Shown: positions 11,895-52,007 of the stretch, piece by piece
How positions within the stretch are numbered: position 1 is the stretch's first letter
Layout: every line of letters begins with the position of its first letter
DNA from: Hoeflea sp. IMCC20628
GTDB taxonomy: Bacteria; Pseudomonadota; Alphaproteobacteria; Rhizobiales; Rhizobiaceae
Reading direction: 5' to 3'
Assembly: GCF_001011155.1 (NCBI RefSeq)
Contig: NZ_CP011479.1
Location: 3,676,501 to 3,740,500 of the forward strand
Length of the DNA stretch: 64,000 nt
The notes under the pieces: generated by a model
Told to the model about the DNA's origin: nothing
What the model saw: the letters and a program-made list of their open reading frames with translations, nothing else
Databases searched by the model: none
Made by a program: the position numbers and the translations under genes

Positions 11895-11950
11895 TGGCGC
11901 CCGAAGGCAGATTGAACCACCCACACGCGGGTTTTCAATCCTGCTGTCTG
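11895..11950 (-). repeat. Decayed 3' part of tRNA-Phe; candidate distal attachment site of a 40-kb island
   Basis: From the CCA end through the anticodon loop this stretch matches the intact tRNA-Phe gene at 51932-52007 in 42 of 48 aligned columns (five substitutions and one missing base), including exact runs TTGAACCACC, ACACGCGG and TTTTCAATCC. The D arm and 5' acceptor half are missing. Orientation is the same as that of the intact gene. The 3' flank (GAGAGAAAA versus GAGAAAATA) is also similar. This is what integration of an element into the 3' end of tRNA-Phe would leave at the far end. It cannot make a functional tRNA. Confidence 0.75.
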
Positions 11951-12112
11951 GAAACCAAAGCAGGTTGACAAGGCCGGCTGAAACCCCAGTAAAAATGCCA
12001 CGCACGCATGAGGCCCCCGCTTGGGCTACGCCCTCAAGGCAGTCTCATGCGTGCGAATACCGTGGCCTGGTTTTACGCCACCCATTGGTCGGGTTTTGCT
12101 CCACCGTTGACA

Positions 12113-12132
12113 GGCCGCCGAAAACGGCGGCC
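12113..12132 (-). terminator. Hairpin just after the ABC importer operon
   Basis: Perfect 8-bp stem GGCCGCCG / CGGCGGCC with an AAAA loop, 10 bases past the stop of the substrate-binding protein gene. No T run follows on the minus strand; likely terminator or transcript-end protection. Confidence 0.55.
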
Positions 12133-12142
12133 CAGTCAGGTT

Positions 12143-13354
12143 CTATTTGAAATCTGAAGCGGGATAGAATTTTTCCGCCACCCAGGCGCCGTCTTCGGCG
12201 CGCAGGATCTGGTAAGACCCTGCAGGCGTACCACTCTTGTCCATCGTCAGCGGCCCGGAAGCGCCTTCGAAATCGATGTCGGTGCCTGCCGCCAGCATTT
12301 CCTTTGCCTCGGCAAAGGATGCAACCGGCGTACCGCCTTCACTCACATCCCGAATGACGGAATTGAGCGCCTCGCCGGTGCATCCTTCGGATGCCTCCAG
12401 AGAAAGGGCGGCCAGCATGACCATGTCATAGGAGTTCGCAGCGAAGGGTCCTGGTGCCTTGCCGCTCGATGCCTTCATGCGTTCTGCAAAGGCCTTGTAT
12501 GCAGGCAGCGAGTTATCCGGCTCGGCCAGTTCGACAAACGCCTTGCCATTGAGAATTCGCGGGTCGATCGCTTCAAAGACCTCAGGCACGGCGAGGTCTG
12601 CCGTGAGCAGCCATTCACCCTCAAATCCACCGACAGCGGCTTCCTTGAGGACGGTGATGCCCGATTCCTGACCACCCGCCAGATAGATCGCATCGGGATT
12701 GTGGGACAGGACTGAAATCAGCTCTGCCTGATAGGACGGCTGGCCCGGATTATAGACGACATAGTCGGTCAGCTCGATTCCTGCACCGGCCAGTGTCTCG
12801 CGCGCAACCTGTGCCGGCGAGATGGTGGATTCCTCGTTCTGGACAAGAAACGCCACCGACTTGTAACCGCGGTCGGTCAGCCACAGGCCCGAAGCAGCAC
12901 CATCACCAAGGTCCGAAGACACCGTGCGATAGACATAATCTCCGCCGATATCATTCAGCGTGATGGTTCCGGCATAGGGCGACATCACGACAGTCTTCTT
13001 GCGCTTTGCCAGATCGACCAGAGCAACCATTTCGCCGGACGTCGGTCCGAGGATGGCAACAGCCCCTTCGCTGTCGATCATGTTGGTGGCTTCGCGGATC
13101 GCGTGTTCCGGGCTGCCGCCAGTATCAGCGATCACCGTACGCAACATCCCGCAAGATGTGCCGCCGGCTTCATTGATTTCGGTGACGCCCAGCTTGATCG
13201 CATCCGCGACGATTTCGCCGAATTCGCCCAGTTCACCGGTCAGAGGCACGAGGATGCCGATGGTGGCGTCGGCTGCCGCGACAGATGGCATAGCTGCAGC
13301 AGCGACTGCGACGAGTGCGGTCATGCCGCAAAGTCTATTCTTCAAAAGTTTCAT
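12143..13354 (-). CDS. Liv-type ABC transporter substrate-binding protein, probably for picolinate uptake
   Basis: Periplasmic binding protein of 403 residues (type I fold, Leu/Ile/Val-binding family). Signal peptide at residues 1-27, then TIGILVPLTGELGEFG, the usual start of the mature protein. ATG 13354 is chosen over an upstream in-frame start because AAGGAGAA precedes it. It is the last gene of a five-gene importer operon (permeases, ATPases, binding protein) placed next to picolinate-degradation genes and sharing promoter motifs with them. I therefore infer that it binds picolinate or a related pyridine carboxylate; the family also includes aromatic-acid binders. The ligand is not shown by sequence. 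Confidence 0.85.
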   Translation of the reverse strand: MKLLKNRLCGMTALVAVAAAAMPSVAAADATIGILVPLTGELGEFGEIVADAIKLGVTEINEAGGTSCGMLRTVIADTGGSPEHAIREATNMIDSEGAVAILGPTSGEMVALVDLAKRKKTVVMSPYAGTITLNDIGGDYVYRTVSSDLGDGAASGLWLTDRGYKSVAFLVQNEESTISPAQVARETLAGAGIELTDYVVYNPGQPSYQAELISVLSHNPDAIYLAGGQESGITVLKEAAVGGFEGEWLLTADLAVPEVFEAIDPRILNGKAFVELAEPDNSLPAYKAFAERMKASSGKAPGPFAANSYDMVMLAALSLEASEGCTGEALNSVIRDVSEGGTPVASFAEAKEMLAAGTDIDFEGASGPLTMDKSGTPAGSYQILRAEDGAWVAEKFYPASDFK

Positions 13355-13403
13355 ATGGCTGTTCTCCTTGTTTATGTTGGACGGGCTTTGCCCGGTCGGC
13401 CCC

Positions 13404-14099
13404 CTACAGAAGCATCTCTTCGAGACGACCCGGTTGCAGCAGGTCGGCGCTCGGCAGGGTTTCACGGTTGCGCCCGGCATCAATCATCCAGGTGGTCCGC
13501 GATATGTTCAGTATTTTTTCAGGGTTCTGTTCCACGACCCAGATAACGCTCATGCCCTTGCGGGACAGTTCGCATACCCAGTCGACGATCCGGTCCACGA
13601 AGATCGGGGCCAGTCCGGCTGTCGGTTCGTCGAGGATTAGAAACTTCGGTGCACCAATCAGAGCATTCGCAATGGCCAATGTCTGGCGCTCGCCGCCGGA
13701 CAATGTCGAGGCCTGCTGATTTGCCCGATCCTTCAGGATCGGAAACCGATCATAGGTATCTTCAATCCGCGGGCCGGTACCGGTAAAATTCAGCGCCGAA
13801 GCCAAAAGATTGTCGCGCACAGTCAATTCGGCGAATGTGTTGCCTTCCTGCGGGACATAGGCGATGCCCGCCCGGGTGACCTCAAGCGCGGTGGAGCCGG
13901 TGATGGCCTTGCCATCGATAGCGATTTCGCCACTGCTTACTGGAAGACGCCCCGCAATTGTCTTCATCAGCGTGCTTTTACCGGCCCCGTTGGCCCCAAG
14001 CACACAGGTGATTTCACCCGACTCAGCACAAAAATCAATTCCGTGCAGAATGGTGACCTTGCCGTAGCCGCTGTGAACCGCTTTGACTTCAAGCTTCAT
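13404..14099 (-). CDS. ABC transporter ATP-binding protein (LivF-like), pic-associated importer
   Basis: ATPase of 231 residues with Walker A at 35-42 (GANGAGKS), an LSGGERQ signature and the LILDEPTAGLAPIFVD Walker B region typical of LivF. Starts 11 bases inside the end of the LivG-like gene. It ends 49 bases before the start of the binding-protein gene, the largest gap in the operon. Confidence 0.9.
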   Translation of the reverse strand: MKLEVKAVHSGYGKVTILHGIDFCAESGEITCVLGANGAGKSTLMKTIAGRLPVSSGEIAIDGKAITGSTALEVTRAGIAYVPQEGNTFAELTVRDNLLASALNFTGTGPRIEDTYDRFPILKDRANQQASTLSGGERQTLAIANALIGAPKFLILDEPTAGLAPIFVDRIVDWVCELSRKGMSVIWVVEQNPEKILNISRTTWMIDAGRNRETLPSADLLQPGRLEEMLL

Positions 14100-14862
14100 G
14101 TTCTGTCCCCAGATAGGCTGAAATAACTACAGGATCACGGCGGACCGCCTCGGGCTCGCCTTCCGCCAGAAGTCCGCCGTTTTGAAGCACGACAATGCGG
14201 TCTGCCAGATCGAACAGAAATGTCAGGTTGTGCTCAACCACGATCACGGTCGTTCCCGCTTGGTGCAAATCGCGAAGCAAGCTGGCGAGCTTGACCTGCA
14301 GCACAGGGTCGACGCCCGCTGTCGGCTCATCGAGCAGCAGAATGCGCGGGGCCCGATTCAATTGCCGTGCGACCTCCAGCATTCGCAGTTCACCACCCGA
14401 AAGATTGGCAACCAGATCATGGCGTCGATCGATCAGTCCGACCCGTTCAAGCGAAGCTTCGGCGCTTTCGCGCAATTCCGCGTCCCCACTGCGCCAACGG
14501 CCAAGAAGTGCAGCGATTGGGCCCTCATGCGGGTTGTGTGCACCCACCATGATATTGTCCAGGACACTGAGGGATGGAAACGCACGCGGTGTCTGGAATG
14601 TACGCCCCAGTCCCATGCCCGCAATATCCTGCGCCCGGCGCCCCGACAGATCGGTTCCGTTCAACAGGACTTTGCCCTCGGTCGGCGCCAAGACACCGGA
14701 AATCAGATTGAACGTTGTGGATTTTCCCGCCCCGTTCGGCCCGATCAATCCGAGGAAATCGCCACGTTGGACCGAAAAACTCAAGCCCTCGGCGCCACCG
14801 ACAGCACGCAGTCCACTGAATTGCTTGACGACCTTTTCTACGCTCAGGATTGTGTCGGTCAT
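14089..14862 (-). CDS. ABC transporter ATP-binding protein (LivG-like), pic-associated importer
   Basis: ATPase of 257 residues. Walker A at 41-49 (GPNGAGKST), LSGGELRMLEVAR signature, LLLDEPTAGVDP Walker B. The start at 14862 makes an ATGA overlap with the upstream permease stop; an in-frame ATG 10 codons earlier (14892) would lie inside the permease gene and is less likely. Liv-type subgroup by the VEHNLTFLFDLADRI segment. Confidence 0.9.
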   Translation of the reverse strand: MTDTILSVEKVVKQFSGLRAVGGAEGLSFSVQRGDFLGLIGPNGAGKSTTFNLISGVLAPTEGKVLLNGTDLSGRRAQDIAGMGLGRTFQTPRAFPSLSVLDNIMVGAHNPHEGPIAALLGRWRSGDAELRESAEASLERVGLIDRRHDLVANLSGGELRMLEVARQLNRAPRILLLDEPTAGVDPVLQVKLASLLRDLHQAGTTVIVVEHNLTFLFDLADRIVVLQNGGLLAEGEPEAVRRDPVVISAYLGTEHEA

Positions 14863-15782
14863 GCCTTCGCCCTCCGCGACAGTTTTTCCCAAGGCTGCCA
14901 GCGCAACACGATGATGAACAGGATGCCGGTTACGACCTCTTCGACCGATGCCGCGATCTGCGCGGCACGCACGGATTCGAACGGAATGGAGCCGACCGCC
15001 TCCTGGAAGAACACAAGAGCGAGTGTGCCGAGTATGGCGCCCAGGATCGTCTTCTCCCCGCCGAGCGCAAGTGCGATCCAGACAAAGAACGTAATCTCGG
15101 CCGTGAACAGCGCCGGCGACACAAGGGTCGTGGTCATGGCGTAGAGCGCACCGGCGAACCCGATCGGGATCGCCGAGATCACGAAGACCTGCAGCCGGAT
15201 CCGAGCACCGTCCTTGCCAATGGCTTGCGCCGCGATTTCATCGTCATGGATGGCATCAACAGTGCGACCGAACGGCGATTTCAGCAGCCGGTGAAAGAAG
15301 AATGCCGTCACCAGCATCAACGCCACAGCCGCCATTGCATAGGTCAGCATGTCGTTGAGTCCGATCAATGTGGGATCAGGACGTTCGACGTTGGACAGGC
15401 CGACACTTCCGTTGCCGATCCGACGCTCATTCAGGAGGAAGGAATGCAAGACTTCGGCAAAGGCGAAAGTCGTCAGCGCCAGATACTCGCCCCTCAGCCG
15501 CAGCGTCGGCCACCCTGTAACCAGAGCGAAGAGAAGCGACGCGACACCCGCTGCGAGAAAGCCCAGATACCAAGGCAATCCAAAGCCGAAGGCATATTGA
15601 TCAAGACCGCTTGGCGGCTCTTGCGTGAAGATGGCGTAGGCATAGGCTCCGGCCGCGAAATAGGCGACGGTTCCAAAATTGATCATGCCGCCGCGTGCAT
15701 ATTGAAGGTTCAGCGACAAGGTCAGGACCGAGAACATCGCGCCAAAGGTGAGTGTCGTCAGGATAAGAGAATAGAGGGTCAT
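14859..15782 (-). CDS. Liv-type ABC transporter permease (LivM-like), pic-associated importer
   Basis: Membrane permease of 307 residues with the LivM-type segment LNLQYARGGMINFGTVAYFAAGAYAYA near residues 25-50 (split here by wording only) and about eight to ten hydrophobic helices. Conserved cytoplasmic loop RTVDAIHDDEIAAQAIG. ATGA overlaps with both neighbours show tight translational coupling in the operon. Confidence 0.88.
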   Translation of the reverse strand: MTLYSLILTTLTFGAMFSVLTLSLNLQYARGGMINFGTVAYFAAGAYAYAIFTQEPPSGLDQYAFGFGLPWYLGFLAAGVASLLFALVTGWPTLRLRGEYLALTTFAFAEVLHSFLLNERRIGNGSVGLSNVERPDPTLIGLNDMLTYAMAAVALMLVTAFFFHRLLKSPFGRTVDAIHDDEIAAQAIGKDGARIRLQVFVISAIPIGFAGALYAMTTTLVSPALFTAEITFFVWIALALGGEKTILGAILGTLALVFFQEAVGSIPFESVRAAQIAASVEEVVTGILFIIVLRWQPWEKLSRRAKA

Positions 15783-16642
15783 CGGGATTTCTTTCCTGCT
15801 AGTCCTTCGGGACGGAACAGCAACACGAGGATCACCACTGCAAAGGCGATCAACGGCCGATAGCCGGCAGGTATCCAGAACACCGATAGATCCATCGCTA
15901 CACCTACGATCAGACCTGCAGCAATCACGGCGTAAAGCGACCCAAGCCCGGCAAGAATCGCCACTGCAAGGATCTGAAGGATTTGGTGGAATGCGATATC
16001 CGTCGACAGCGTCGCCACGATGGCCAGCATTGTGCCGGAGAGCCCGGCCAGACCGGACGAAATCATCCAGGTGATCCGCGAAGTGGATTTCACGTCAATC
16101 CCGCGCGAAGCCGCCAGTTCGGGATTGGCAGAGATTGCCCGGATGGCAAGCCCCATGGATGTCTTGTTCAGGAACAGAGCCAGTGATCCGGTGGCGACAG
16201 CGGCAAAAGCCACGACCAGCATCTGGTAATCGGTGATCCGAAGCCCCCAGAAACGGTAGCTGGTGGCGAGCGGGATATCGAGCGTTCGAATACCCGTGCC
16301 GACCAGCGCATCCACTGTCCCGCCGATCGCATAGGCGACACCGACAGAGGTGATGAGCAGGACCGATGGCCCCAGCTTGCGAATGGGATCGTAGACAATG
16401 CGGCCGATGGCAAGACCCACAAGGGCGGTGAAGACGATGCCTACAACTGCGGCAGGCACGATATGCCACCCGAGAAGATTGTTCAGTCCCCATACGGTAA
16501 AAGCAGAAACGCCGAGCAACTCGGCATGGGCGATGTTGAGAAAGCCCTCGACACGGCGGGTGAATGAGAACCCTATGGTCGCCAGTATGAGAAACGATCC
16601 GGTCACAATACCGGTGAGAAAAAATTGCAGGAAGAGCGTCAC
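15779..16642 (-). CDS. Liv-type ABC transporter permease (LivH-like), pic-associated importer
   Basis: Membrane permease of 287 residues, first gene of the importer operon. It has the LivH start pattern (GIVTGSFLILATIGFSFTRR then EGFLNIAHAELL) and the loop RAISANPELAASRGID. The start codon is GTG at 16642. The 279-base upstream region carries two motifs shared with other pic promoters. Confidence 0.88.
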   Translation of the reverse strand: MTLFLQFFLTGIVTGSFLILATIGFSFTRRVEGFLNIAHAELLGVSAFTVWGLNNLLGWHIVPAAVVGIVFTALVGLAIGRIVYDPIRKLGPSVLLITSVGVAYAIGGTVDALVGTGIRTLDIPLATSYRFWGLRITDYQMLVVAFAAVATGSLALFLNKTSMGLAIRAISANPELAASRGIDVKSTSRITWMISSGLAGLSGTMLAIVATLSTDIAFHQILQILAVAILAGLGSLYAVIAAGLIVGVAMDLSVFWIPAGYRPLIAFAVVILVLLFRPEGLAGKKSR

Positions 16643-16812: not shown

Positions 16813-16824
16813 ATCGACAAATTA

Positions 16825-17600: not shown

Positions 17601-19952
17601 ATGAACACCGGCATCGGCGCACGCATTCCCCGTAAGGAAGACAGTCGGCACTTGCGCGGTGCAGCCCAGTTTGTAGGCGATATCAAGATGCACGGCAGCT
17701 GGGAGGCCGCATTCGTTCGCAGCCCCCTTGCCCATGCGCGAATTCGCTCCATCACCAAGCCGGCAGGGGCTGAAGGGCGTGTCTTCACGATCGACGACCT
17801 GACTGACCTGCTGCCAATCCGGGCAGAATCAAGCCTGCCCAGCTACAAGATTTCCGACCACCCGGCGCTCGCCCGGAACAAGGTTCGTTTTGTCGGTGAA
17901 TGCATCGCTGTCTGCATCGCTCCTACGCGTGCTGAGGCGGAAGATCTCGCCGAAGCGGTGACTGTCGACCTTGAACCGCTGCCCGTGCATGTCGACGTGG
18001 AATCGGCGCTGGCGCCGGATGCCGCGCGACTGCATGAAGAATGGTCCGACAACCTGTTTCTCAGCACCACCTTTGACAGCGACCTGTCGGATGCCCGCGC
18101 AAAAGCAACAGTGGTGATCGAGCGCGAATACGCGACCGCACGCCAGTGCATGGTGCCGATGGAAGGCAAGGGTACGCTGGCCTTTTGGGACGGCAAGACC
18201 GAACAGCTGGTGGTCTACACCTCGACCCAGGTCCCGCACCTTATCCGGACCGGCATCGCCCAATGCCTGCAGCTTGATCAGGGCGATGTGCGGGTTATCG
18301 CGCCCGATGTGGGCGGCGGTTTTGGCTACAAATGCGTGCTTCAGCCCGAAGAGCTGGTCGTGTCATGGCTCGCCCGGTCTACCGGACGCCCTATTCGCTG
18401 GACCGAGGACCGGCGCGAGCACCTGACTGCGGGTGCCAACACCCGAGAGCACAAATACAAGATCACCGCCTATGCCGATGACACTGGCAGATTGCTCGGA
18501 CTGGACGCAGACATTTGGGTCGATATCGGCGCCTATTCGGTCTGGCCCTTTACCGCCTGTCTCGAGGCGGCACAGGCCGGGGGCAATCTGCCCGGCCCCT
18601 ATGATATCGGCGCCTATTCCTGCCGCACCTACTCGGTTGCAACCAACAAGCCCGGATTCACTCCTTATCGCGGAGTCGCGCGACCGGGGGTCTGTTTCGC
18701 CATGGAACTGACAATTGACGCCATCGCCCGCGCTGTCGGCCGCGACCCTCTCGAGGTGCGCGAAATCAACCTCGTCCAGGGCAGCGCCATGCCCTACACC
18801 AACATCACCGGCAAATACTACGATACCGGCGACTACCCCGAGGCCGCACGTCAGGCTGCTGCAATGATCGACGCGGCCGGCTTCCGCAAACGCAAGGAGG
18901 CGGCGGCAAGGGAAGGCCGTTATCTGGGGATTGGATACTCGTCCTTTACCGAACAGTCGGCACACGGCACCAAGGTCTTTGCTTCCTGGGGACTGGCACT
19001 GGTTCCGGGCTATGAGCAGGCAATGGTAAAGCTCGCACCGACCGGGTCGGTGGAGGTCAGGTCGGGCAATCACTCCTTCGGCCAGGGGCTGGAAACCACC
19101 CTCGCCCAGGTTGCCAGCGAATGGCTGACGGTGGACATCAGTCAGATCAAGGTGACGATGGGCGACACCGGGACGACGCCCTATTCCACCGGGGCCTATG
19201 CTTCGCGCGGAATGGTGATGGCGGGCGGAGCGGTCTCCAAGGCCGCGGAAGAGCTTTCCCGCCGAATCCGCGCGATCGGATCGCACCTTTTGCAATGCAA
19301 GCCTGAGGAAACCGAACTGAAGGAAGGCGCGGTGTTCTGCGGTGCAGCCTCGGTGAGTTTGAAGCGGATTGCACAGGCCTGGTATTTGCGGCCCGACATG
19401 CTGGCCGACAATGTGAACACAATGGGCCTCGAGGTAACCGAGGGCTACAAGCCCGACATCGACACTGGTGTGTTTACCTACGCAACCCACGCCGCCGTGG
19501 TCGAAGTCGACATCGCCACAGGCAAGGTCGACATCAAGGACTATGTTATCTTCGAGGATTGCGGGCGTCGTGTGAACCCGCTGATTCTGGATGGACAATC
19601 CTACGGCGGTGCCGCGCAGGGTATCGGCACGGCCCTGTTCGAGGAGGTGATCTATGATGCCGCCGGACAGCCGCTGACATCAACACTGGCCGACTATATC
19701 CTGCCTGGCCCGGCCGAACTTCCGTCGTTTCGCCTTGGCCACTCCGAAACTCTTTCGCCCCATACCCGTCACGGCATCAAGGGTGTGGGCGAAGGCGCAG
19801 CCATTGCGCCCAGCGGCGCCATTGTGAACGCGATCAACGATGCACTTTCGCCGCTCGGGGCCGAACTGACGCGCATTCCCGCGACGCCGCACCGCATCCT
19901 CGAGGCGATCTTCAACGCTCAGGACGCAAGCGGAATGGAGGCCTCGAAATGA
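17601..19952 (+). CDS. Molybdopterin-binding large subunit of a xanthine-oxidase-family hydroxylase, PicA-like
   Basis: Catalytic subunit (783 residues) of a three-part molybdenum hydroxylase. Domain a/b of the aldehyde oxidase family is at about 1-120, the MoCo-binding part after that. Seen: VGGGFGYK (MoCo loop), PYRGVARPG where CO dehydrogenases have AYRGAGR, FGQGLETT, and GVGEGAAI with the catalytic glutamate at residue 731. The absence of the Cys-containing AYRCSFR loop excludes a CO dehydrogenase. First of three overlapping genes. By context it should 6-hydroxylate picolinate to 6-hydroxypicolinate with water as oxygen donor; nicotinate-type hydroxylation is the alternative. No molybdenum cofactor genes are adjacent. 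Confidence 0.88.
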   Translation: MNTGIGARIPRKEDSRHLRGAAQFVGDIKMHGSWEAAFVRSPLAHARIRSITKPAGAEGRVFTIDDLTDLLPIRAESSLPSYKISDHPALARNKVRFVGECIAVCIAPTRAEAEDLAEAVTVDLEPLPVHVDVESALAPDAARLHEEWSDNLFLSTTFDSDLSDARAKATVVIEREYATARQCMVPMEGKGTLAFWDGKTEQLVVYTSTQVPHLIRTGIAQCLQLDQGDVRVIAPDVGGGFGYKCVLQPEELVVSWLARSTGRPIRWTEDRREHLTAGANTREHKYKITAYADDTGRLLGLDADIWVDIGAYSVWPFTACLEAAQAGGNLPGPYDIGAYSCRTYSVATNKPGFTPYRGVARPGVCFAMELTIDAIARAVGRDPLEVREINLVQGSAMPYTNITGKYYDTGDYPEAARQAAAMIDAAGFRKRKEAAAREGRYLGIGYSSFTEQSAHGTKVFASWGLALVPGYEQAMVKLAPTGSVEVRSGNHSFGQGLETTLAQVASEWLTVDISQIKVTMGDTGTTPYSTGAYASRGMVMAGGAVSKAAEELSRRIRAIGSHLLQCKPEETELKEGAVFCGAASVSLKRIAQAWYLRPDMLADNVNTMGLEVTEGYKPDIDTGVFTYATHAAVVEVDIATGKVDIKDYVIFEDCGRRVNPLILDGQSYGGAAQGIGTALFEEVIYDAAGQPLTSTLADYILPGPAELPSFRLGHSETLSPHTRHGIKGVGEGAAIAPSGAIVNAINDALSPLGAELTRIPATPHRILEAIFNAQDASGMEASK

Positions 19953-42448: not shown

Positions 42449-42480
42449 GCCCTTCGCGTCGTCGCAAGTGCATCGACCAT

Positions 42481-43392: not shown

Positions 43393-43941
43393 TCACGCAT
43401 TTTCATTCAGGATCCGATAAACCTGCATCCGCGAACAACCAATATCACGGGCTATGGCAGACGGCTTTTCGCCACCGCCTGCCAACCGCAGTACTTCATC
43501 TCGATCAATTCGCTGTTTGCCACCCTTGTACCGGCCAAGCGATTTGGCGCGCTCGATCCCTTCGCGCTGGCGCTCCTTGATGAACCGCCGCTCCATCTGA
43601 GCAACCATCCCCAGCACCGTCATAACGATCTGGCCCATATCACCCTTGGTCGAAACATATGGATCCAGCACAGTCACAAAGGCCTGCTTCTGCTCGCACT
43701 CATGTATGATGTTCAACACGTCACGGGTATCGCGGCCAAGGCGATCAAGCCGCGTGACGATCAGTTCGTCCTGTGGGCGCAGGAAGCTGAGGATGGTTGC
43801 CAGCTCATCCCGTTCATCGCGGCTCTTGCCAGATGCCTTCTCTGAGCGAATGAGGCTGCATCCCTCGGCCGTCAATCGTTCTGTCTGTATGTGCAGGTCT
43901 TGGTCAGCTGTGCTGACGCGTGCGTATCCGATGCGTGCCAT
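43393..43941 (-). CDS. Serine recombinase (resolvase/invertase family)
   Basis: 182 residues. Catalytic Ser10 in ARVSTADQD, then DRLGRDTRDVLNIIHEC and the E helix MVAQMERRFIKERQREGIERAK; a C-terminal helix-turn-helix (KPSAIARDIGCSRMQVYRIL). This is the Tn3-type TnpR size and layout. No Tn3 transposase gene is near, so it is probably a leftover of a transposon. It acts at a res site, normally just upstream of the gene (43942-44060 here). Confidence 0.92.
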   Translation of the reverse strand: MARIGYARVSTADQDLHIQTERLTAEGCSLIRSEKASGKSRDERDELATILSFLRPQDELIVTRLDRLGRDTRDVLNIIHECEQKQAFVTVLDPYVSTKGDMGQIVMTVLGMVAQMERRFIKERQREGIERAKSLGRYKGGKQRIDRDEVLRLAGGGEKPSAIARDIGCSRMQVYRILNENA

Positions 43942-44271
43942 GTGTAACTCCAGCTTCTAGACCGGAGTCTACGGTGTCACAAATAGACCAAGTCAAGGCT
44001 GTTGTTACGGGTTTCCGGCGCTTTCGATACGTAACGCCAGCGTATACTTTGATGTAACATTCCAATTGAAAGCGAAAAGTGCAGAAAACAGAATTTCATT
44101 CAACGGCGGCTGAAGGCTAGACTTTGACGGCAGGTGCAAAAATGGAGCTTCCGGCCCTGAGCCGACCTTCGCCTTACAAGAGCACGCTGCGATGCAACTT
44201 TTCGATAGCTGCCCCCCCGCTTATTCAGCGACAGTGCGAAGGTCCAAATGTCGGCTTTTGGTTTGAATTCG
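43942..44271. other. Intergenic stretch upstream of the resolvase gene
   Basis: 330 bases with no credible gene. The part next to the resolvase has several short dyads around GTAAC/GTTAC strings and would be the place for a res site, but I cannot define subsites by eye. Confidence 0.35.
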
Positions 44272-44901
44272 TCACACATCGTCGGCGAACAGTGCGTCAA
44301 GGTAAGGGGCGCTTTCTGGTCTATTCATAATTCCAAATCTGGAAAGATGCGGCAGGCCAACAAAGATTCCGCTGTTGAATCGGCCTTTGCATGCCGTGAT
44401 ACTTCCCCAGCCAACTTCGGTTTTACGAACATCTCGAACTTGCAGCAGGCGGCAAACGCTATCGATAGCGAGCGACCCCATAGTCACGACTAGGGACGGT
44501 TTTGCATCGCGTAAGACCGACAACCATAGATCCTCACCAAACTTTAACGCAGACCGTGGCCTTTTCAGACTGTTCCAATCGGGCGATCGGAACGGGACCA
44601 AATTGCCTGATAGAACATTCTCTGGCTTTTCACCTAACCGATCAAAGAGAGACAAAATCTGCTTTTGCAACTTACTTTCTCCAGGAGGATTGTCCGCCCA
44701 ACTTTCGTCTCGGTAGGCACTGCCTTCCTTCATTGCAAATTTGCCATGGCTGGAATCCTCTTTAGAACCGCCCGGATTTAGTCCGATAAATGCAACACGC
44801 GCTTCCTGAAGGGTTTGGACAGGGCTACTCAAAAACCGCCAGCCCATCGTATTCCCGGACTCTTCATATGCCCGACTAATTCGCGCCTCGATATCGTGCA
44901 T
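44272..44901 (-). CDS. Uracil-DNA glycosylase-superfamily-like protein
   Basis: 209 residues. The segment VAFIGLNPGGSKED (about residues 35-48) has the GLNPG motif of the uracil-DNA glycosylase superfamily, and LPHLSRFG near the C-terminus is in the place of the HPS loop. Between them are LSGNLVPFRSP and PSLVVTMGSLAID, which suit the central strands. There are no four cysteines for an iron-sulfur cluster, so it is not a family 4/5 enzyme. Whether it removes uracil or another base, or has lost activity, is unknown. It stands alone in the island and is more AT-rich than the chromosome genes. Confidence 0.65.
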   Translation of the reverse strand: MHDIEARISRAYEESGNTMGWRFLSSPVQTLQEARVAFIGLNPGGSKEDSSHGKFAMKEGSAYRDESWADNPPGESKLQKQILSLFDRLGEKPENVLSGNLVPFRSPDWNSLKRPRSALKFGEDLWLSVLRDAKPSLVVTMGSLAIDSVCRLLQVRDVRKTEVGWGSITACKGRFNSGIFVGLPHLSRFGIMNRPESAPYLDALFADDV

Positions 44902-45595
44902 CGAATTTTTCCCAACATGGTTTCACTCTAAGGGATCTTTATGCGTTGAAAACGCCTGATACAACCGACGCCTTAGCAGCTTCGGTCCGGAACGTTTCGG
45001 GTCGGTCTGTTCCGGTGGCCTGATTTGTTTAATATAGCTCGTAGTTGCCTGCTGCGGTGCAGATAACATTCTGCCGTCGTAATCGCCGGAATGTCCGCTC
45101 CGTGTAGAATCGTCGCTCTGTTTCGCAATTGCGGCGAAAAGACACTTCCTACCCGAAGCTTCCTAACCTTCATTGGCACTTTCGGCCCTTTGCTGACCTC
45201 GGTCCCTTTGTCAAATGCTGCACCGCAGCTACCGCATTGCTGCCATTGGTCAAGCGCCGTGACAACCGATGTAATCCGCCATCAATTGGTTACGGCGTGT
45301 CGCACGCAGACGCCGAGCTATGCCCAAATCCGTGGCCAGTACGCGAAACCCCACCCAAATTGCTTCAAATCCAGGGAAGATAGGCCGTATGCCGCGCCAA
45401 ACCGAAAGAAATTAACAAAAAGGGAGCCGCCTATGCCACTGTCTCGCTAAGAAGCGCCCCATCTGGGGATGTCGGGAAAAGGAGCCTCACATCAATCGAC
45501 ACAAATAGGCCTAAAGTTTTGCCATCAATTGCTCGTTCAGCGCATCTGCTCAATACTGAAACTTGCAGCCCCCAAACCCCCGAAAGACCCTCGTC
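44902..45595. other. Long intergenic stretch with a decayed repeat
   Basis: 694 bases without a gene I can support. The frames at 45091-45450 and 45129-45383 have no family features or ribosome sites. At about 45070-45165 there is a stretch related to 50510-50605 (shared ATGTCCGCT, TGCGGCGAA and CACTTCC with CCC-AAG), see the repeat entry. Confidence 0.4.
45070..45165. repeat. Decayed dispersed repeat, copy 1
   Basis: Aligned by eye with 50510-50605 in the same orientation: common blocks CCGTCG, ATGTCCGCT, CTCTG, TGCGGCGAA and ACACTTCC. Non-coding as far as I can see; origin unknown. Confidence 0.4.
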
Positions 45596-45943
45596 ATGAC
45601 GAAACTCATCCAAGCAAGCATTGCTGCTATTATTTCGCTAAGCTTTTCCAATGCAGCTATGGCCGCGTGCTCTGATCCGTTGGGTCCAAAGGTTGACTGG
45701 AGTGGATGTGACAAGAACCACGCGTACCTGACCAGCGCGGACCTGACCGGCGCGGACCTGACCGGCGCAAACCTGTACGCCGCGAACCTGTACAACGCGG
45801 ACTTGGGCGGCGCGGACCTAAGAAGAGCGGACCTGACCTACGCGAACCTGATGGACGCGTACCTGTACGGCGCGGACATGACCGACGCGATTTGGACGGA
45901 CGGACGGCTCTGTGCAGCTAATTCCATTGGTGTCTGCAAGTAG
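45596..45943 (+). CDS. Exported pentapeptide-repeat protein 1
   Basis: 115 residues. Signal peptide (about 1-23, ending SNAAMAA), a short region with two cysteines (ACSDP, SGCDK), about ten tandem pentapeptides of the A(D/N)Lxx type (right-handed beta helix), and the end WTDGRLCAANSIGVC. The start 45596 is chosen because the signal peptide begins there. The same end pattern occurs in the proteins at 46177 and 47658. Role unknown; periplasmic location is likely. The repeats are encoded by near-identical 15-base units. Confidence 0.8.
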   Translation: MTKLIQASIAAIISLSFSNAAMAACSDPLGPKVDWSGCDKNHAYLTSADLTGADLTGANLYAANLYNADLGGADLRRADLTYANLMDAYLYGADMTDAIWTDGRLCAANSIGVCK

Positions 45944-46176
45944 AGCTTTCGGCAATACCTTGGCGAAATCGTTGTTGCACTGAAGCTAAGCGACTTTCGT
46001 TAGTCAAAAAATGATTGCCTTCGGAGCCGCTGTAACAAGTGAAAGACGGGGCGTGGTGCTTGGTAAACATGGCTGAGATGTTCTGGCACCGTGACCGTCC
46101 GGCGGACCCGCACTGGCGACAAGTTGTGTTATCGGCAGCATCCAGTATCAATAACAGCTAAATTTGGAGTTCTACT

Positions 46177-46596
46177 ATGAGAATACGTTCATTTCTGGTT
46201 TTCGTGGCGCTGTTCGCAACTGCGTCACCTTCAATGGCTTGGGATCAAGTCGACATCGATCGATTGAACAACCGTGAAGGTTGCCCGGATTGCGATTTGG
46301 CCGGCGCAAACCTGAGTGGGATGGATCTCTCCAGTCAGGATTTGAGCGGTGCGAACCTCTCCAATGCAGACATGACAGGAGTAGGGCTTTACAACAGCAA
46401 TTTCAGTGGTGCCAACCTCTTCAACGCAAACTTGAGATCCGCGAATCTGACCGGCACAAATTTTTCAGGCGCCGATCTGACAGGTGCCATTTTTACGGGT
46501 GTGCATGAATTGAATATCGAGAACCTCAACCTGACCAACGCCAAAATGTGCAGCACGACCTGGATCGACGGTACTGTCGACAACACCAATTGTTAG
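46177..46596 (+). CDS. Exported pentapeptide-repeat protein 2
   Basis: 139 residues with a signal peptide (MRIRSFLVFVALFATASPSMA), a CPDC pair just before the repeat region, about twelve pentapeptides (DLSGANLSNADMTG type), and an end CSTTWIDGTVDNTNC that resembles the end of the neighbouring repeat proteins. GGAG ribosome site 10 bases before the ATG. Probably a periplasmic beta-helix stapled by disulfides at both ends; no enzyme motif is seen. Confidence 0.85.
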   Translation: MRIRSFLVFVALFATASPSMAWDQVDIDRLNNREGCPDCDLAGANLSGMDLSSQDLSGANLSNADMTGVGLYNSNFSGANLFNANLRSANLTGTNFSGADLTGAIFTGVHELNIENLNLTNAKMCSTTWIDGTVDNTNC

Positions 46597-46895
46597 CTCG
46601 CCGGCGGCGGCCGCCATCGCCCACGCGGTCCAGGAGTTTGACCACATGAAACCCATTTATGCGGATCGTGGCATCTTATGTGACCTCCTCTAAGCCTCTC
46701 TATGGTGGGTTCCACTAGTAGGAAAAAGTTCTCATCGGAAGAGGGGTAAAGGGAAAAATCTGAGGGAACCAACGGTTGGGTATTAGCAAATATAAATCCA
46801 ACATAACGACCGGGACCTAGGCTCAGGCGGTGGGAAGTCAGTACAACAAAGACATCCAGCAGCAAGATTTAATTAATTAGTAAAATAGGTATACA
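46597..46895. other. Intergenic stretch
   Basis: 299 bases; no gene or clear structure seen. The part before 46896 is AT-rich and should hold a promoter. Confidence 0.35.
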
Positions 46896-47174
46896 ATGAA
46901 GAGTTCCATAAAATGCAGCCCGATGATGCTAATATCATCGGCGTGCCTGTTTGTGTTAGTTGGCGGATCGGGAGTTCAGTCGAGGTCGGACGAACCACAA
47001 GGCGATAATGAAAACAAAAGGATAAATGACAAAATCGAAAGTATTGAAAAAGCCAAAAAGATGCAGAAATATACAATATGCGTTGAGGGTTGTAGATATG
47101 TAGATTCAAGTGCTGAATACATTAGTGATGCAGAGGACGAATTAACCCTGGCTATTTGTCGGGCAAAATGCTGA
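46896..47174 (+). CDS. Small exported cysteine-containing protein, unknown function
   Basis: 92 residues. N-terminal hydrophobic segment (MLISSACLFVLVGGSG) serves as signal peptide or anchor; a highly charged lysine/glutamate middle follows; the end has CVEGCRYV and CRAKC, a Cx3C pair set that suggests two disulfides (helical hairpin). Codon use is AT-rich, unlike the chromosome genes. No strong ribosome site. I do not recognise the family. Confidence 0.5.
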   Translation: MKSSIKCSPMMLISSACLFVLVGGSGVQSRSDEPQGDNENKRINDKIESIEKAKKMQKYTICVEGCRYVDSSAEYISDAEDELTLAICRAKC

Positions 47175-47226
47175 CTGAAAGCGCCCGTTATGCGAATTCT
47201 CTCTAGAGAGGTGAAGGATTTGCCAG

Positions 47227-47530
47227 TTACGCTGCTTGAGAAGCGTAACTCCAGTGCAGCAATTCGTCGATACGAGTGATCTTATGATCGGCGATACGGC
47301 CAAGGACCCAGGTGAGCCATGCCTGTGGATCGCCACGCCAGAGAAACACCATGTTGGCGTTTAGCCCATGTCGCCTCGCGACCTCCGCGACCGACGCACC
47401 CGGCTCCATCGTCTCGGTCACGACCCGACGCTTGAAGGCTGTCGTATAACTCCGCCGCTTGCGTTTGGAAAGCGCCGCTGACCCTGCCCTGCCATGAGTT
47501 GGTTGCGGGAGCTAATGTCCATTCGCGATT
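47227..47530 (-). pseudogene. IS66 remnant: start of tnpA joined in frame to the end of tnpC
   Basis: One frame on the minus strand first reads [21 protein letters not shown] and [18 protein letters not shown], the N-terminal half of an IS66 TnpA, then at about 47334 continues with [20 protein letters not shown], the C-terminal end of the IS66 TnpC transposase. The middle of TnpA, all of TnpB and most of TnpC are gone, so a single internal deletion fused both ends of an IS66 element. Confidence 0.8.
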
Positions 47531-47657
47531 AGGACGTTTCCGCTTCATGGTGAGCGTGCCTTGTCTGATTTGCTATCTGCGGGGGTTTGTGCGCAGTGTG
47601 CGCCATCGGCTTTTGAAAAGATGTCGACTACGACCAACATTAAATAGGGAGAAGTCG

Positions 47658-48128
47658 ATGAAATATTTGAATTTTATTGCTGCAGTTATTGTTTCGCTCG
47701 GGACCACGTCCAGTGCTGTTATGGCCTGTGGTTTTCCGGTCGTGGACGCTAATGATTTTCATGAATGCGATTGGAGCGGTAAGGTACTGAAGTCGCGGGA
47801 CCTGTCGGGAACGAACCTGTCCGGAGCAAACCTCTCCAACTCGGACCTACGAGATGCGAACCTGTCCGGGGCCAATCTCTCCGGGGCCAAACTAGGGGAT
47901 GCAGACTTGGAAAGCGCAAACCTGTCCGGGGCGAAGCTGAATGGGGCGACCCTGGAAGGGGCGACGCTGGATGGGGCGACCCTGGAAGGGGCAAACCTGA
48001 CCGAGGCGAACCTCTACGGGGCAAGTCTGCAACAGGTGCGGATGGCCGGGGCAAACCTGTCCCGGGCTGTATGGATGGATGGCTCGGTGTGCGCTGATGT
48101 GTCCATCGGCGAGTGCACGCCGCGATAA
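47658..48128 (+). CDS. Exported pentapeptide-repeat protein 3
   Basis: 156 residues with signal peptide (to about VMA), two cysteines ahead of the repeats (ACGFP, HECDW), about 17 pentapeptides (DLSGTNLSGANLS, then GATLEGATLDGATLEGANL) and the end WMDGSVCADVSIGEC. GGGAGAAG ribosome site. The DNA of the second half consists of almost identical 15- and 30-base units. An IS66 element inserted 15 bases after the stop codon. Confidence 0.87.
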   Translation: MKYLNFIAAVIVSLGTTSSAVMACGFPVVDANDFHECDWSGKVLKSRDLSGTNLSGANLSNSDLRDANLSGANLSGAKLGDADLESANLSGAKLNGATLEGATLDGATLEGANLTEANLYGASLQQVRMAGANLSRAVWMDGSVCADVSIGECTPR

Positions 48129-48135
48129 TCCGGCA

Positions 48136-48143
48136 GCCGGTGT
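48136..48143. repeat. 8-bp target site duplication, left copy
   Basis: GCCGGTGT, identical to 49519-49526 on the other side of the IS66 element. Confidence 0.9.
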
Positions 48144-49518
48144 GTAATTACCCACCCCCTTGCCATGCACCACAATGTCTGAATCCATGATGATATGGAT
48201 CGGACTGATTTGCAGCAGCTGAGCAAGGACGAATTGATCGAGATGGTGCTTCGGCTCCAACGGCCTGCCAAGGATTCTCGGACGTCTTCCAAGCCGCCCT
48301 CTACGGACAAGAAAGAGAAACGCGTCAACTCACGACCGGGTGGAGCCAAGCCCGGGCATGAACCCCACAATAGGGTGCTGGCGGATTTTGCCGACATGTT
48401 TCGCGATCATGAACCGACCGCCTGCAAGAGATGCGGCCATGCGTTTTCCGGTGATGATACGATGGTGCTGGCCGGGGCCTATGACGAGATCGATATTCCT
48501 GCGATCCGTCCTCATGTCACCCGGCATCGGCGTTTTTCCTGTCATTGCCCGCAATGCGGCACGACGACAAAAGCCACCGCACCTGCCGTGGCAACCGCAA
48601 CGCCGTTCGGGCCAGGCATTCACGCGCTGGCGATCTACCTCAAGAGTTTCCATGCATTGTCTTACGAACGCCTGAGCGGTGTGTTCATGGATATCTTCGG
48701 CCTCCATGCGAGCGAGGGCGCGATCATGAACATGTTTGCCCGCTCCCGTCCGAGCTTCCAGGCCACAGCACAGGCCGCCAAGGCCAGCCTTCGAGCCGCC
48801 CGCGTTGTCGCCAGCGACGAAACCGGTGTGCGTATTGAGGGCACAAATGCCCAACACTGGGTTTTTCATTGCAAGGATGCCGTTGTCCACCAGCCCGATT
48901 ACTCCCGTGCAGCACGGGTCGTTCACGAGACCATGGGCGGCCATGTCCCCGAGGTATGGATATCTGATCGGTATTCAGCCCAGCAATCTCACGGCCATCG
49001 ACATCAAACCTGCCTTGCACATTTGGCGCGTGATACAGCCTTTGCGCTGGAACATGGCGAGGATGATCTCCCTCTTCGCTTCCAGCTTTGGTTTGGCCGT
49101 GTGTTTGATTTCGCCAGAGCCATAAGCACATTCGCTGCGTCTACCGTCGCAAGCAAGAAGCGCAAATTCGATAAACAGCTTGCCGGGCTTCTATGCGCCC
49201 CGACTTCATGCGACCTGGCCCAAAAGCTCCAGGCCAAGATCGGGCGGGCCCGCGATCAGCTGCTGACGTTTTGCGACTATCCCGGAGAAGTCGATGTCAC
49301 CAACAACACATCTGAGCGAAAGCTCCGTCCATGGGTCATTCAGCGAAAGGTGACAAACGGATATCGCGCCATGTGGGCCGCCCAAGCCGAAGCGAACATA
49401 CGCACGACAGTCGATACCGCACGCCTCAAAGGCGCAAACCCCTTCCAGGTCATCGCATCCGTCCTGGCATAGGCCGGTAGAAGAACCGGAAATCACGAAT
49501 TCAGGGGTGGGTAATTAC
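48144..49518 (+). mobile_element. IS66-family insertion sequence, complete (tnpC-only type)
   Basis: 1375 bases with a perfect 15-base terminal inverted repeat GTAATTACCCACCCC and an 8-base target duplication GCCGGTGT, the length known for IS66. It has only the TnpC-type transposase gene, as in the ISBst12 subgroup, and no tnpA or tnpB. Intact ends, duplication and gene suggest recent activity. Confidence 0.93.
48195..49472 (+). CDS. IS66-family transposase (TnpC type)
   Basis: 425 residues. N-terminal coiled coil (LQQLSKDELIEMVLRL) and a SKPPSTDKKEK box, zinc-binding domain (CKRCGHAF, CHCPQCG), then the DDE domain: SDETGVRIEG (first Asp), SDRYSAQQ (second Asp), and NNTSERKLRP with the catalytic Glu. 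Full length for the type, with no internal stop. Confidence 0.93.
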   Translation: MDRTDLQQLSKDELIEMVLRLQRPAKDSRTSSKPPSTDKKEKRVNSRPGGAKPGHEPHNRVLADFADMFRDHEPTACKRCGHAFSGDDTMVLAGAYDEIDIPAIRPHVTRHRRFSCHCPQCGTTTKATAPAVATATPFGPGIHALAIYLKSFHALSYERLSGVFMDIFGLHASEGAIMNMFARSRPSFQATAQAAKASLRAARVVASDETGVRIEGTNAQHWVFHCKDAVVHQPDYSRAARVVHETMGGHVPEVWISDRYSAQQSHGHRHQTCLAHLARDTAFALEHGEDDLPLRFQLWFGRVFDFARAISTFAASTVASKKRKFDKQLAGLLCAPTSCDLAQKLQAKIGRARDQLLTFCDYPGEVDVTNNTSERKLRPWVIQRKVTNGYRAMWAAQAEANIRTTVDTARLKGANPFQVIASVLA

Positions 49519-50718: not shown

Positions 50719-51081
50719 ATGCCAGAGCAGTATCGCAAGTTCCATAGACATCCCGCAAAGCCGATTCGAACGCTGCAGGACGCCGCCGATGATGCTCAGA
50801 TAATTGTTGTTCGCTGTGGCCTCTGCAGACGTCTGATCAATTACCTTGCGACCGATCTTGTCCAGGTGCTCAATCCATCTCGGCCCGTCGATGCGCCACC
50901 CTTTGCCTGCTCTAAGTGCGGCACCGGCGATTACATGAGCGTCCGAGTGAAGACAGCTTCCATGGCAGAATATGGGCACCTCACCGTCAGGCGGCTCTTG
51001 GGCATCCGAAGCGTCTCCGAATGGGGAAACCGCCAACTGGGTGACGAACTGAAAGGCGACAAGGGGAGCAATCGACGGTAA
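50719..51081 (+). CDS. Conserved hypothetical protein with a zinc-ribbon-like pattern
   Basis: 120 residues. CGLCRRLINYLATDLVQVL and later FACSKCGTGDYMSVRV give two CxxC pairs about 40 residues apart, suggesting one zinc ribbon. Similar small proteins are frequent in rhizobia, with no known role to me. The start at 50719 is chosen as the last Met before the conserved part; no ribosome site is evident. Convergent with the SRAP gene. Confidence 0.55.
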   Translation: MPEQYRKFHRHPAKPIRTLQDAADDAQIIVVRCGLCRRLINYLATDLVQVLNPSRPVDAPPFACSKCGTGDYMSVRVKTASMAEYGHLTVRRLLGIRSVSEWGNRQLGDELKGDKGSNRR

Positions 51082-51085
51082 CGCG

Positions 51086-51730
51086 TCAGGGAGCTTCAAC
51101 GAGTAGGAGCTGATCGTCCGACAGCGGTCGCTGGAGCGCCTTTGCTTCGTCCCATGGCGCTGATAGCCATGTGTCGACCTCCTCACGCGTAGTGAGGATT
51201 ACAGGCATCGCCTTCTTGTGGATCGGCTCGACGACGCTATTGGGCTGCGTCGTCAAGAAAGCATAGAGATCCGTCTCGATCTCACCCTCTTTCAATTTGC
51301 GGACGCTGGTCCAGCGGGTCCAGATGCCCGCGAAGAAGAATAGCGGACGGTCTTCGCTCACCGCAAACCATGCATTCGGCGTGCGCTCCCCTTCCTGTTT
51401 GTTTGCAGGATCTGGTTCCGCGAAATCGGTTGCAGGAACCACGCAACGGTTCTCGACCCCGAGCCAGCGCTGCCAGTGAGGCGATGACGCATTGCGCACG
51501 TTGGTGACACCTTTGTCCGTCTTTTTGCCTTCAAGAAACTTCGACGGTGTAGGCATACCCCAGCGCGCTTTTGCGATTTCGCGCTTGTGGTCCTTGTTCA
51601 TCCGGACAATCGGGGCCTCATAGTCGGGGTACACCTTCCCCGGCTCAAGATTGCCTGCATGGTTCACTACCGCGCTGGTGAACTCGATGATCGCCTGCGG
51701 CCCGATGGTGATATTGTAGAGGTTGCACAT
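51086..51730 (-). CDS. SOS response-associated peptidase-family protein (SRAP; YedK/HMCES)
   Basis: 214 residues. The second residue is Cys (MCNLYN), which after removal of Met forms a thiazolidine crosslink with abasic sites in single-stranded DNA in this family. Also seen: [35 protein letters not shown] (with conserved Glu), [10 protein letters not shown], and HKKAMPVIL with the conserved His. The start 51730 is fixed by the need for Cys2. It is placed at the tRNA end of the island; SRAP genes are often carried by mobile elements and plasmids. The chromosome may have another copy. Confidence 0.92.
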
Positions 51731-51840
51731 CAGCGGATCTCCTTCGCGGCCAGCCAAGCTCAAATGCGAAAAATGCGCAAGCAATGTCTGACAGCGACCT
51801 CAGCTGCGCCGCAGAGTCCTTCATCTGACAAACAATCCGA

Positions 51841-51860
51841 TTGCTACTTATTTGCTACTT
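51841..51860. repeat. Direct repeat of TTGCTACTT near the tRNA-Phe end of the island
   Basis: Two copies (51841-51849 and 51852-51860) with an 11-base period, 72 bases from the tRNA 3' end and inside the presumed island. Such helical-turn-spaced repeats can be arm-type integrase sites; this is inference. Confidence 0.35.
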
Positions 51861-51931
51861 GAAGAAAATATGAGCCTTAGGGGCTCGACACCTAAAACTA
51901 CACCAAACTATTGAACTCATTGAGAAAATAG

Positions 51932-52007
51932 TGGTGCCCGGAGGCGGATTTGAACCACCGACACGCGGATTTTCAATCCGCTGCTCTACCAACTGAGCTA
52001 TCCGGGC
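51932..52007 (-). tRNA. tRNA-Phe (anticodon GAA), with encoded CCA
   Basis: 76 nucleotides including CCA. Acceptor GCCCGGA pairs with TCCGGGC, D loop with AGTTGGTA, anticodon stem and loop with GAA (GATTGAAAATC), variable loop, T arm with TTCAAATC. All four arms pair well. Its 3' part is duplicated in decayed form at 11895-11950. A tRNA-Phe gene is also the integration site of the symbiosis island in Mesorhizobium. Confidence 0.97.

Follow-up and report, generated by a model that had tools for sequence, protein, structure and literature searches.

The 40-kb interval between an intact tRNA-Phe gene and a displaced piece of its 3' part in Hoeflea sp. IMCC20628 probably arose by insertion of an element at this tRNA gene, which left the displaced fragment and was followed by mosaic growth, likely with more than one insertion. 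We regard it as a genomic island of a familiar type, assembled stepwise. An element carrying its own tRNA-Phe 3' part would have recombined with the tRNA-Phe gene of the chromosome, with the crossover in the anticodon stem-loop, presumably by the action of a tyrosine integrase whose gene may since have been lost, leaving the island fixed. The picolinate-type cluster (12.1-30.6 kb) might have been brought by the island or collected later, and IS elements accumulated in the interval, which also has a 9.2-kb cyo/PQQ-dehydrogenase block in common with contig C3 of this genome. Features are listed in Table 1, with positions referring to the window, the whole stretch of 64,000 nucleotides that was analyzed.

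Table 1. Features of the window in and around the tRNA-Phe island
Feature	Position	Strand	Basis
ABC transporter, GST, phaC; conserved distal flank	1..6353		Contiguous in G010
RND efflux pair and TetR/AcrR regulator just outside the scar; elsewhere in relatives	6686..11756		Family scans and relatives' contexts
Outer flank of the scar, weakly like the flank on the island side of the intact tRNA; perhaps an earlier element's arm	11857..11894	-	Flank z-scores
Displaced tRNA-Phe 3' fragment (tRNA positions 29-76), distal att scar	11895..11941	-	42/48 identity; score 68 vs next best 28
Probable element arm adjoining the fragment; its part from 11955 onwards lies in a dispersed repeat (11955-12119)	11942..11986	-	Matches G012 fragment arm, z 9.8
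Branched-chain/urea-type ABC transporter (SBP, LivF, G, M, H-like)	12143..16642	-	NCBIfam
MarR-type regulator	16922-17788	-	NCBIfam
Three-subunit molybdenum hydroxylase (PicA-like)	17601..21942	+	NCBIfam
Rieske oxygenase: small-subunit-like gene and 990-aa ORF	22011..25537	-	NCBIfam, PDB, tblastn
Decarboxylase (PicC-like), maleamate amidohydrolase-like, 2,5-dihydroxypyridine dioxygenase, deformylase-like hydrolase, maleate isomerase-like protein, TetR regulator	25368..30575	-	NCBIfam, PDB
IS481/IS3-type transposase genes	30945..32344	-	NCBIfam for 30945-31997; 31922-32344 by position
cyo quinol oxidase, MarC, PQQ-dependent dehydrogenase block	32405..41580	+	Near-identical to C3:94391-103648, same genome
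Transposase remnants, serine resolvase, pentapeptide-repeat genes, IS66	41594..49472		Pfam; IS91 annotation on similar plasmid stretch
SRAP-family gene, tRNA-proximal end	51086..51784	-	Pfam
Intact tRNA-Phe (GAA), integration target, proximal island end	51932..52007	-	ARAGORN and Rfam

The original prediction of a minus-strand tRNA-Phe gene with a same-orientation fragment, restricted to the 3' half and matching at 42 of 48 positions, was borne out by ARAGORN, Rfam (51935-52007), and alignment, in which the 42/48 identity was reproduced over a 48-column core. It had extended the fragment to 11950, of which nucleotides 11942-11950 proved not to be tRNA-derived: the 45 nt upstream of the core score z -1.1 against the tRNA 5' half. 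In local alignment with tRNA-Phe the fragment scored 68 (61 in an overlapping tile), and the next best tile of the window lies far below. Its score with tRNA-Phe in the comparison among tRNA-like loci was 64, against 13-26 with six other loci, namely five matches to tRNA-Phe in the genome and tRNA-Thr. A BLAST search of the genome with tRNA-Phe as query did not list the fragment; the longest exact run common to both, 10 nt, is probably shorter than the search word size. On one side the fragment is followed by the acrR stop codon (11756), on the other by the substrate-binding protein gene at 12143. It is spanned by a 164-aa reverse-strand ORF (11511-12005), which looks spurious.

The probable 45-nt arm on the inner side of the fragment resembles its counterpart at the tRNA-Phe fragment of the same-genus genome G012, and the 13 nt closest to the core, which lie outside the dispersed repeat, match it as well (z 4.4; 2/2000 shuffles). 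Two observations on this arm count against the insertion reading. The arm also matches the dispersed repeat (z 6.6-9.5), to which the G012 arm shows no match (z 1.5-2.3), and the exact arm pattern was found only once, in G005, in a draw of 394 family genomes that did not include G012, a carrier of the pattern. The island suggests that an old island without an integrase may be recognizable by the non-tRNA arm beside its tRNA fragment. That the insertion occurred at the 3' end of tRNA-Phe and is old, as originally proposed, is supported by the fragment identity, the arm match, and the lack of the cargo pyridine dioxygenase gene in all 17 same-genus relatives.

The tRNA-Phe gene is a recurrent integration target. 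In G017, a perfect 56-bp fragment is separated from it by 18 kb that include a tyrosine integrase and a phage terminase, and this prophage-like element offers a working example at the same tRNA gene. Further fragments occur in G005, where 58 bp are found at a distance of about 52 kb, and in G012, whose own integrase was not detected in the short contig ends examined. Among the ORFs nearest to tRNA-Phe, scanned in 11 of the 17 relatives, a tyrosine integrase was present only in G017, and G001 has a serine recombinase. Foreign DNA also fills the space between tRNA-Phe and phaC in G010 (62 kb) and G011 (28 kb), where the intervals read held no fragment scoring at least 44; therefore, insertion at this site need not leave a fragment. 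We do not claim as proven empty attB sites the arrangements in G007, in which the end of phaC lies about 100 nt after tRNA-Phe, or in G003 and G015, in which a GST gene follows directly.

By its sequence, the 40-kb interval is a mosaic and not one unit. The 9.2-kb block is a near-copy of its C3 counterpart, which it matches in two pieces that are 94.4% and 97.4% identical at the DNA level, and none of the 18 records that it matched in a plasmid collection covers 80% of it. As originally noted, no integrase is left: none of the 16 PF00589 places in the genome falls in C1:3688395-3728432, the island. Relaxase and type IV secretion genes were likewise absent from the 35 interval ORFs scanned (cut-offs E 1e-8 for NCBIfam and 1e-3 or 1e-4 for Pfam). 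The heavy IS debris, the block shared with C3, and the missing integrase would all fit an island formed exclusively by IS-mediated and homologous exchanges, with the fragment stemming from an unrelated element deleted since, as would the repeat that ends beside the scar and the gain of DNA without a surviving fragment in G010 and G011. We nevertheless consider this rather unlikely in view of the tRNA-proximal end. Only G011 matches the window directly 3' of tRNA-Phe for more than about 35 nt, and there the start of the SRAP gene also adjoins the same tRNA gene in the alignment, suggesting that element DNA still abuts tRNA-Phe. The best 10 of 158 matches of the SRAP-tRNA stretch in a phage collection comprise three at 68%, two covering the SRAP side, with tRNA-Phe making up the rest.

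Core-type genes had been noted on both sides of the island. This holds for the yacG/Maf side, Maf adjoining tRNA-Phe in all 17 relatives, but not for 6.4-11.9 kb, from the scar to phaC, which, judged by its gene context in relatives, is an addition and not ancestral flank. Thus, more than one insertion between tRNA-Phe and phaC is likely. An acrR ortholog (at least 66% identity) is present in 12 of the 17 same-genus genomes, on another contig than tRNA-Phe or hundreds of kilobases away; tRNA-Phe is absent from all 13 acrR-RND contexts read (one genome has two copies), although several of these genomes are drafts, in which the two loci might still be distant neighbors across contig ends. Neighbors of the acrR-RND unit are common to G003, G004, G005, G012 (one of two copies), and G014 with 56-98% identity, whereas in the window and the eight other contexts no neighbor exceeds 36% identity with any other context. 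An initial view from six of the 12 relatives that the context is never shared was weakened, since the other six include shared neighbors.

A single 40-kb island, inserted in one event between acrR and yacG with acrR-RND as ancestral flank, would explain why the fragment and the tRNA gene delimit precisely 11895-52007. These bounds stand, but the interior is mosaic, the acrR side has been added as well, and such an event appears improbable given the dispersed locations of acrR-RND described above. The regulator, moreover, is 82% and 81% identical to those of G017 and G016 but 76% to that of G010, the genome that is closest to the window at the tRNA-yacG stretch. The conserved flank starts only at phaC and continues leftwards beyond the window in a block collinear with the region downstream of tRNA-Phe in relatives. 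In G003, G006, G007, G012, G014, and G015, parts of 1-6353 are found on the downstream side of tRNA-Phe or of its fragment. The predicted empty site, joining acrR through one tRNA-Phe to yacG, was not found in the 17 same-genus genomes: with 11740-12142 as query against the genus set of 18 genomes, own included, matches outside the window were copies of the repeat (about 11970-12124), the G005 fragment, and some further short stretches, and in no case was this flank linked to tRNA-Phe. The lack of such a site also weighs against the insertion reading itself. In the GC profile proposed as a check of both borders, a step is seen at 51.9 kb (0.550 to 0.611) and none at 11.9 kb (0.597 vs 0.592). 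The shortness of the fragment (47 nt), its divergence, and its absence from the BLAST results might suggest that it is a duplicate tRNA-Phe gene in decay, or matches by chance, within ordinary variable chromosome; this is highly improbable given the tile scores, the comparison with tRNA-like loci, the upstream 45 nt resembling the G012 arm and not the tRNA 5' half, and the same class of 3' fragment in other genomes.

With element insertion followed by mosaic growth as the preferred reading, the origin of the outer addition may be considered. The flank just outside the scar weakly resembles the island-side flank of the intact tRNA (z 5.2) and that of G011 (4.7), compared with at most 1.7 for 19 others. 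This likeness over about 40 nt hints at possible tandem accretion at tRNA-Phe, although some flank pairs without reason for kinship reach 5.4 and 4.9 in the same comparison, and extension to 100 nt gave a local score of 16, which is not significant (p 0.13). That the outer insertion, too, came from a related element using this tRNA gene is a weaker inference, for which we consider the chances even. It is tempting to speculate, though we think it unlikely, that throughout this genus the 3' side of tRNA-Phe works as a growing array, capturing unrelated DNA time after time and in many cases keeping no tRNA fragment. The scar would then divide two related elements, of which the outer has shrunk to the 5-kb acrR-RND unit, which would have moved as an intact three-gene block to many sites in the genus without a recognized transposase.

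The island resembles those collected by Islander, which catalogs genomic islands at tRNA genes and applies an integrase filter (PMC4383910). Common to both are a restored tRNA gene with a downstream same-orientation 3' fragment, a crossover in the anticodon region, a length (here 40 kb) within 2-200 kb, and a fragment outside conserved coding domains. In contrast, the interval holds no tyrosine integrase gene and would be rejected by the filter, and its fragment is damaged. The phe-tRNA gene of Mesorhizobium receives ICEMlSymR7A and, in strain R88B, the tandem ICEMladhR88B, and tandem accretion is reported there (PMC4334104). Target gene, adaptive cargo, and sequential acquisition at one phe-tRNA are shared with these islands; the Hoeflea island is much smaller, carries catabolic instead of symbiotic cargo, and has neither an integrase nor, among the 35 ORFs scanned, transfer genes. 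A tandem array in which each element has its own fragment and integrase is not seen, the window containing one fragment and the interval no integrase. Symbiosis islands of Mesorhizobium are the best-known occupants of the tRNA-Phe integration site, to which a catabolic island from a different genus is now added, and the mosaic interior with its displaced outer flank indicates that a tRNA/fragment pair need not equal one transferred unit.

The cargo genes probably serve the breakdown of a pyridine acid. We infer that 12.1-30.6 kb is a picolinate-type catabolic cluster with a pyridine carboxylate as putative substrate, which would be taken up and converted via 2,5-dihydroxypyridine and maleamate to fumarate. 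The 2,5-dihydroxypyridine 5,6-dioxygenase matches 7cn3 (E 3.5e-94, residues 3-338 of 343) and is 84-92% identical to proteins in other genera. Molybdenum hydroxylase, Rieske components, and decarboxylase were recognized at the level of families that would suit PicA, PicB1-B4, and PicC; lower-pathway names were deduced from family and gene order, and the Rieske small-subunit label from position and matches in L124 and L130. The pic cluster of Alcaligenes faecalis and Bordetella bronchiseptica likewise combines a molybdenum dehydrogenase, a multicomponent oxygenase, a decarboxylase, a 2,5-dihydroxypyridine dioxygenase, and a lower pathway (PMC10142695). A limited search of the open-access literature found no description of a natural fused three-component Rieske oxygenase. 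Compared with that pic cluster, ferredoxin, ferredoxin reductase, and oxygenase alpha are fused here in a single ORF of 990 aa.

The displaced tRNA-Phe sequence at 11.9 kb starts within the anticodon stem (tRNA position 29), reaches the CCA end, and is identical to the intact gene in 42 of 48 aligned columns, with a longest common exact run of 10 nt. Among 200-base tiles scored on both strands of the whole window, this remnant was the best non-self match of tRNA-Phe (score 68, overlapping tile 61; next best 28), and its alignment score was 64 with tRNA-Phe versus 13 to 26 with six other loci (five genome matches to tRNA-Phe, and tRNA-Thr). An own-genome search with tRNA-Phe returned five other places (75 to 81% identical), the remnant not among them. 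Tile scores and alignment bear out the original observation of a 3' part of the gene in the same orientation, and its reading as a putative att scar is better supported than could be shown then.

The same 3' portion is displaced in three same-genus relatives: G017 (56 bp, 100%, 18 kb from the tRNA), G005 (58 bp, 97%, ~52 kb), and G012 (67 bp, 91%, on a contig other than that of tRNA-Phe). In G017 a tyrosine integrase gene (PF00589, E 1.7e-9) is the first ORF past tRNA-Phe, and a phage terminase comes next, which marks tRNA-Phe as an integration target in the genus. No fragment scoring at least 44 was found in the tRNA-Phe-to-phaC intervals of relatives G010 (62 kb) and G011 (28 kb). We consider it likely that an element inserted in integrase fashion at the tRNA-Phe 3' end and that this region took up DNA more than once; the interior is mosaic.

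Features of the window and their coordinates
Feature	Position	Strand or orientation	Remark
ABC transporter, GST, phaC	127-6374		distal flank
Partial tRNA-Phe copy (remnant)	11895-11941	same as tRNA-Phe	
Dispersed repeat	about 12119 to 11955		overlaps inner arm
Catabolic cluster	12.1-30.6 kb		
Palindromic TTTATACAGTATAC sites	16753-16766, 26369-26382		identical; upstream of two minus-strand catabolic gene runs
Rieske fusion ORF	22565-25537		990 aa
Copy of C3 sequence	32405-41580		C3:94391-103648
Three adjacent pentapeptide-repeat genes	45563-48128		IS-rich stretch
tRNA-Phe(GAA)	51932-52007	minus	
tRNA-Thr with adjoining tyrosine integrase (DUF6538 type)	58320-60176 and beyond		region C1:3734820-3770189
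Sole PF00589 gene of the window	58479-60176		adjoins tRNA-Thr
Type I restriction R-subunit-like protein	60249-63662		beside tRNA-Thr integrase

Assembly by IS-mediated and homologous exchange only, with the fragment left by an unrelated element, is an alternative that we regard as rather unlikely. Part of the interior is a copy, in two pieces (94.4% and 97.4%), of a segment of another contig of the same genome, C3, where IS240-type transposase ORFs lie less than 300 nt from one end and across the other. The rest, up to 51 kb, holds transposase remnants, a serine resolvase, pentapeptide-repeat genes (three of them adjacent), and IS66. For the PQQ-dependent dehydrogenase, no relative above 44% identity was found in the 17 same-genus genomes. 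The composition analysis covered GC, which has a step at 51.9 kb and none at 11.9 kb, and GC3 gene by gene.

The sequence beside the fragment bears on its origin. The 45 nt upstream of it are unlike the tRNA-Phe 5' half (z -1.1). They match the arm beside the fragment in G012 (z 9.8; 0/2000 shuffles), weakly that of G005 (z 2.2, p 0.057), and not that of G017 (z 1.0). A dispersed repeat, present in several same-genus genomes, overlaps this stretch, which slightly lowers our confidence in integrase-type insertion: the 45 nt also match repeat copies (z 6.6 to 9.5). The G012 arm does not resemble these copies (z 1.5 to 2.3), and the 13 nt adjoining the core, outside the repeat, still match G012 (z 4.4; 2/2000 shuffles). 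The arm argument for a putative att scar stands, on less sequence than at first seemed, and a chance match or a decayed duplicate tRNA-Phe is a very improbable source of the remnant. The repeat itself is short, has a palindromic core, ends beside the scar, and has copies (75 to 82%) in those genomes and on contig C2; it is possibly a MITE or REP-like element.

A single 40-kb island between acrR and yacG appears improbable. The predicted empty site joining these genes through one tRNA-Phe found no support: of 17 same-genus relatives, 12 carry an acrR orthologue (at least 66% identity), which lies hundreds of kb from tRNA-Phe on one contig in three (G001, G010, G017) and on another contig in the other nine. 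All 12 genomes were covered, giving 13 contexts because G012 carries the gene twice; none placed acrR beside tRNA-Phe, the best tRNA-Phe score being 35, versus 152 for the gene itself and at least 96 for clear fragments. The RND-acrR unit (6686-11756 in the window) is ~5.05 kb long with nearly constant boundaries in 12 of the 13, matching ~6.7 to 11.75 kb of the window; the G005 copy is cut short by a contig end. Its neighbours are shared among five contexts (G003, G004, G005, G014, and one G012 copy); in nine of 14 contexts (the window and eight others) none exceeds 36% identity with any other context. A bolder reading, in which the tRNA-Phe 3' side is an accreting array and the outer element is reduced to this unit, itself moved intact into many places, is unlikely and lost weight with the shared neighbours. 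A tRNA-Val gene lies ~1 kb from acrR in G017 (L150:6841-6915).

The left flank also speaks against a single island. The segment from the ABC transporter to phaC is found in one piece in G010, where it lies 62 kb beyond tRNA-Phe. G003, G006, G014, and G015 have the transporter, a GST, or both downstream of tRNA-Phe, as G012 does downstream of the fragment, with the GST inverted in some, and in G007 phaC comes within ~100 nt after tRNA-Phe. Pieces of the 20 kb that adjoin the window on its left are collinear with tRNA-Phe downstream regions of eight relatives (G003, G006, G009, G010, G011, G014, G015, G016). The chromosome thus resumes at ~6.4 kb, and the claim of core-type genes outside the island does not hold for 6.4-11.9 kb, itself an addition. 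Four other same-genus genomes (loci L156, L159, L160, L161) have phaC at a distance of 0.1-5 kb from tRNA-Leu(CAA); an integrase lies ~4 kb from the tRNA-Leu/phaC locus of G014.

Tandem insertion of related elements at tRNA-Phe has about even chances. Over the first 40 nt past the CCA end, the scar flank resembles that of intact tRNA-Phe (z 5.2) and of G011 (z 4.7), values that are not independent because the two tRNA flanks are alike (z 10.2); the other 19 flanks gave z of at most 1.7. Pairs without obvious relation reach z 5.4 (G006-G016) and 4.9 (G002-G012) in the same all-against-all list. The score over an anchored 38 nt was reached in 0/2000 shuffles, and the local score over 100 nt was not significant (p 0.13). 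If the likeness is real, the outer flank of the scar would be what remains of the arm of a related element that inserted earlier. In Mesorhizobium, the R88B genome paper reports that elements were acquired one after another, in tandem, at phe-tRNA (PMC4334104). The 307 nt proximal to tRNA-Phe, including the SRAP gene start, are common to the window and G011 at the same tRNA; this layer is possibly older than the divergence of the two species.

A PF00589 profile search of the own genome (E up to 1) gave 16 places, none between scar and tRNA-Phe, in agreement with the earlier view that no integrase is left. The island is thus probably fixed, with mobility through an integrase supplied in trans a lesser possibility.

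The catabolic cluster comprises an ABC transporter, a molybdenum hydroxylase, and a Rieske system. It also encodes a decarboxylase of the amidohydrolase type, which matches gamma-resorcylate decarboxylase (E 3.8e-69), and enzymes consistent with a route from 2,5-dihydroxypyridine to fumarate, with a dioxygenase matching the solved 2,5-dihydroxypyridine 5,6-dioxygenase (7cn3, E 3.5e-94). The layout of the cluster fits the pic pathway described in PMC10142695. The dioxygenase gene was found in none of the 17 same-genus genomes and is 84-92% identical in other genera among the matches listed (80 loci kept of at least 565 confirmed). Near it in those 80 loci, within flanks of up to 10 kb, some shorter, were NicD-like (75), NicE-like (70), NicF-like (46), and Rieske (2) genes at cut-offs of 45% identity (50% for Rieske). 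Rieske ferredoxin, ferredoxin reductase, and oxygenase alpha form a single ORF, as in Paracoccus luteus (L124, 64%) and Bradyrhizobium acaciae (L130, 50%). The two TTTATACAGTATAC sites (0.03 expected with up to 2 mismatches) are possibly operators of a cluster regulator.

Right of the island, the tRNA-Thr 3' end and flank recur in two stretches outside the window, at ~C1:3748105 (46 columns) and ~C1:3770133 (57 nt, perfect), while C1:3749429 holds another integrase; this region probably consists of two islands in tandem, each with an integrase.
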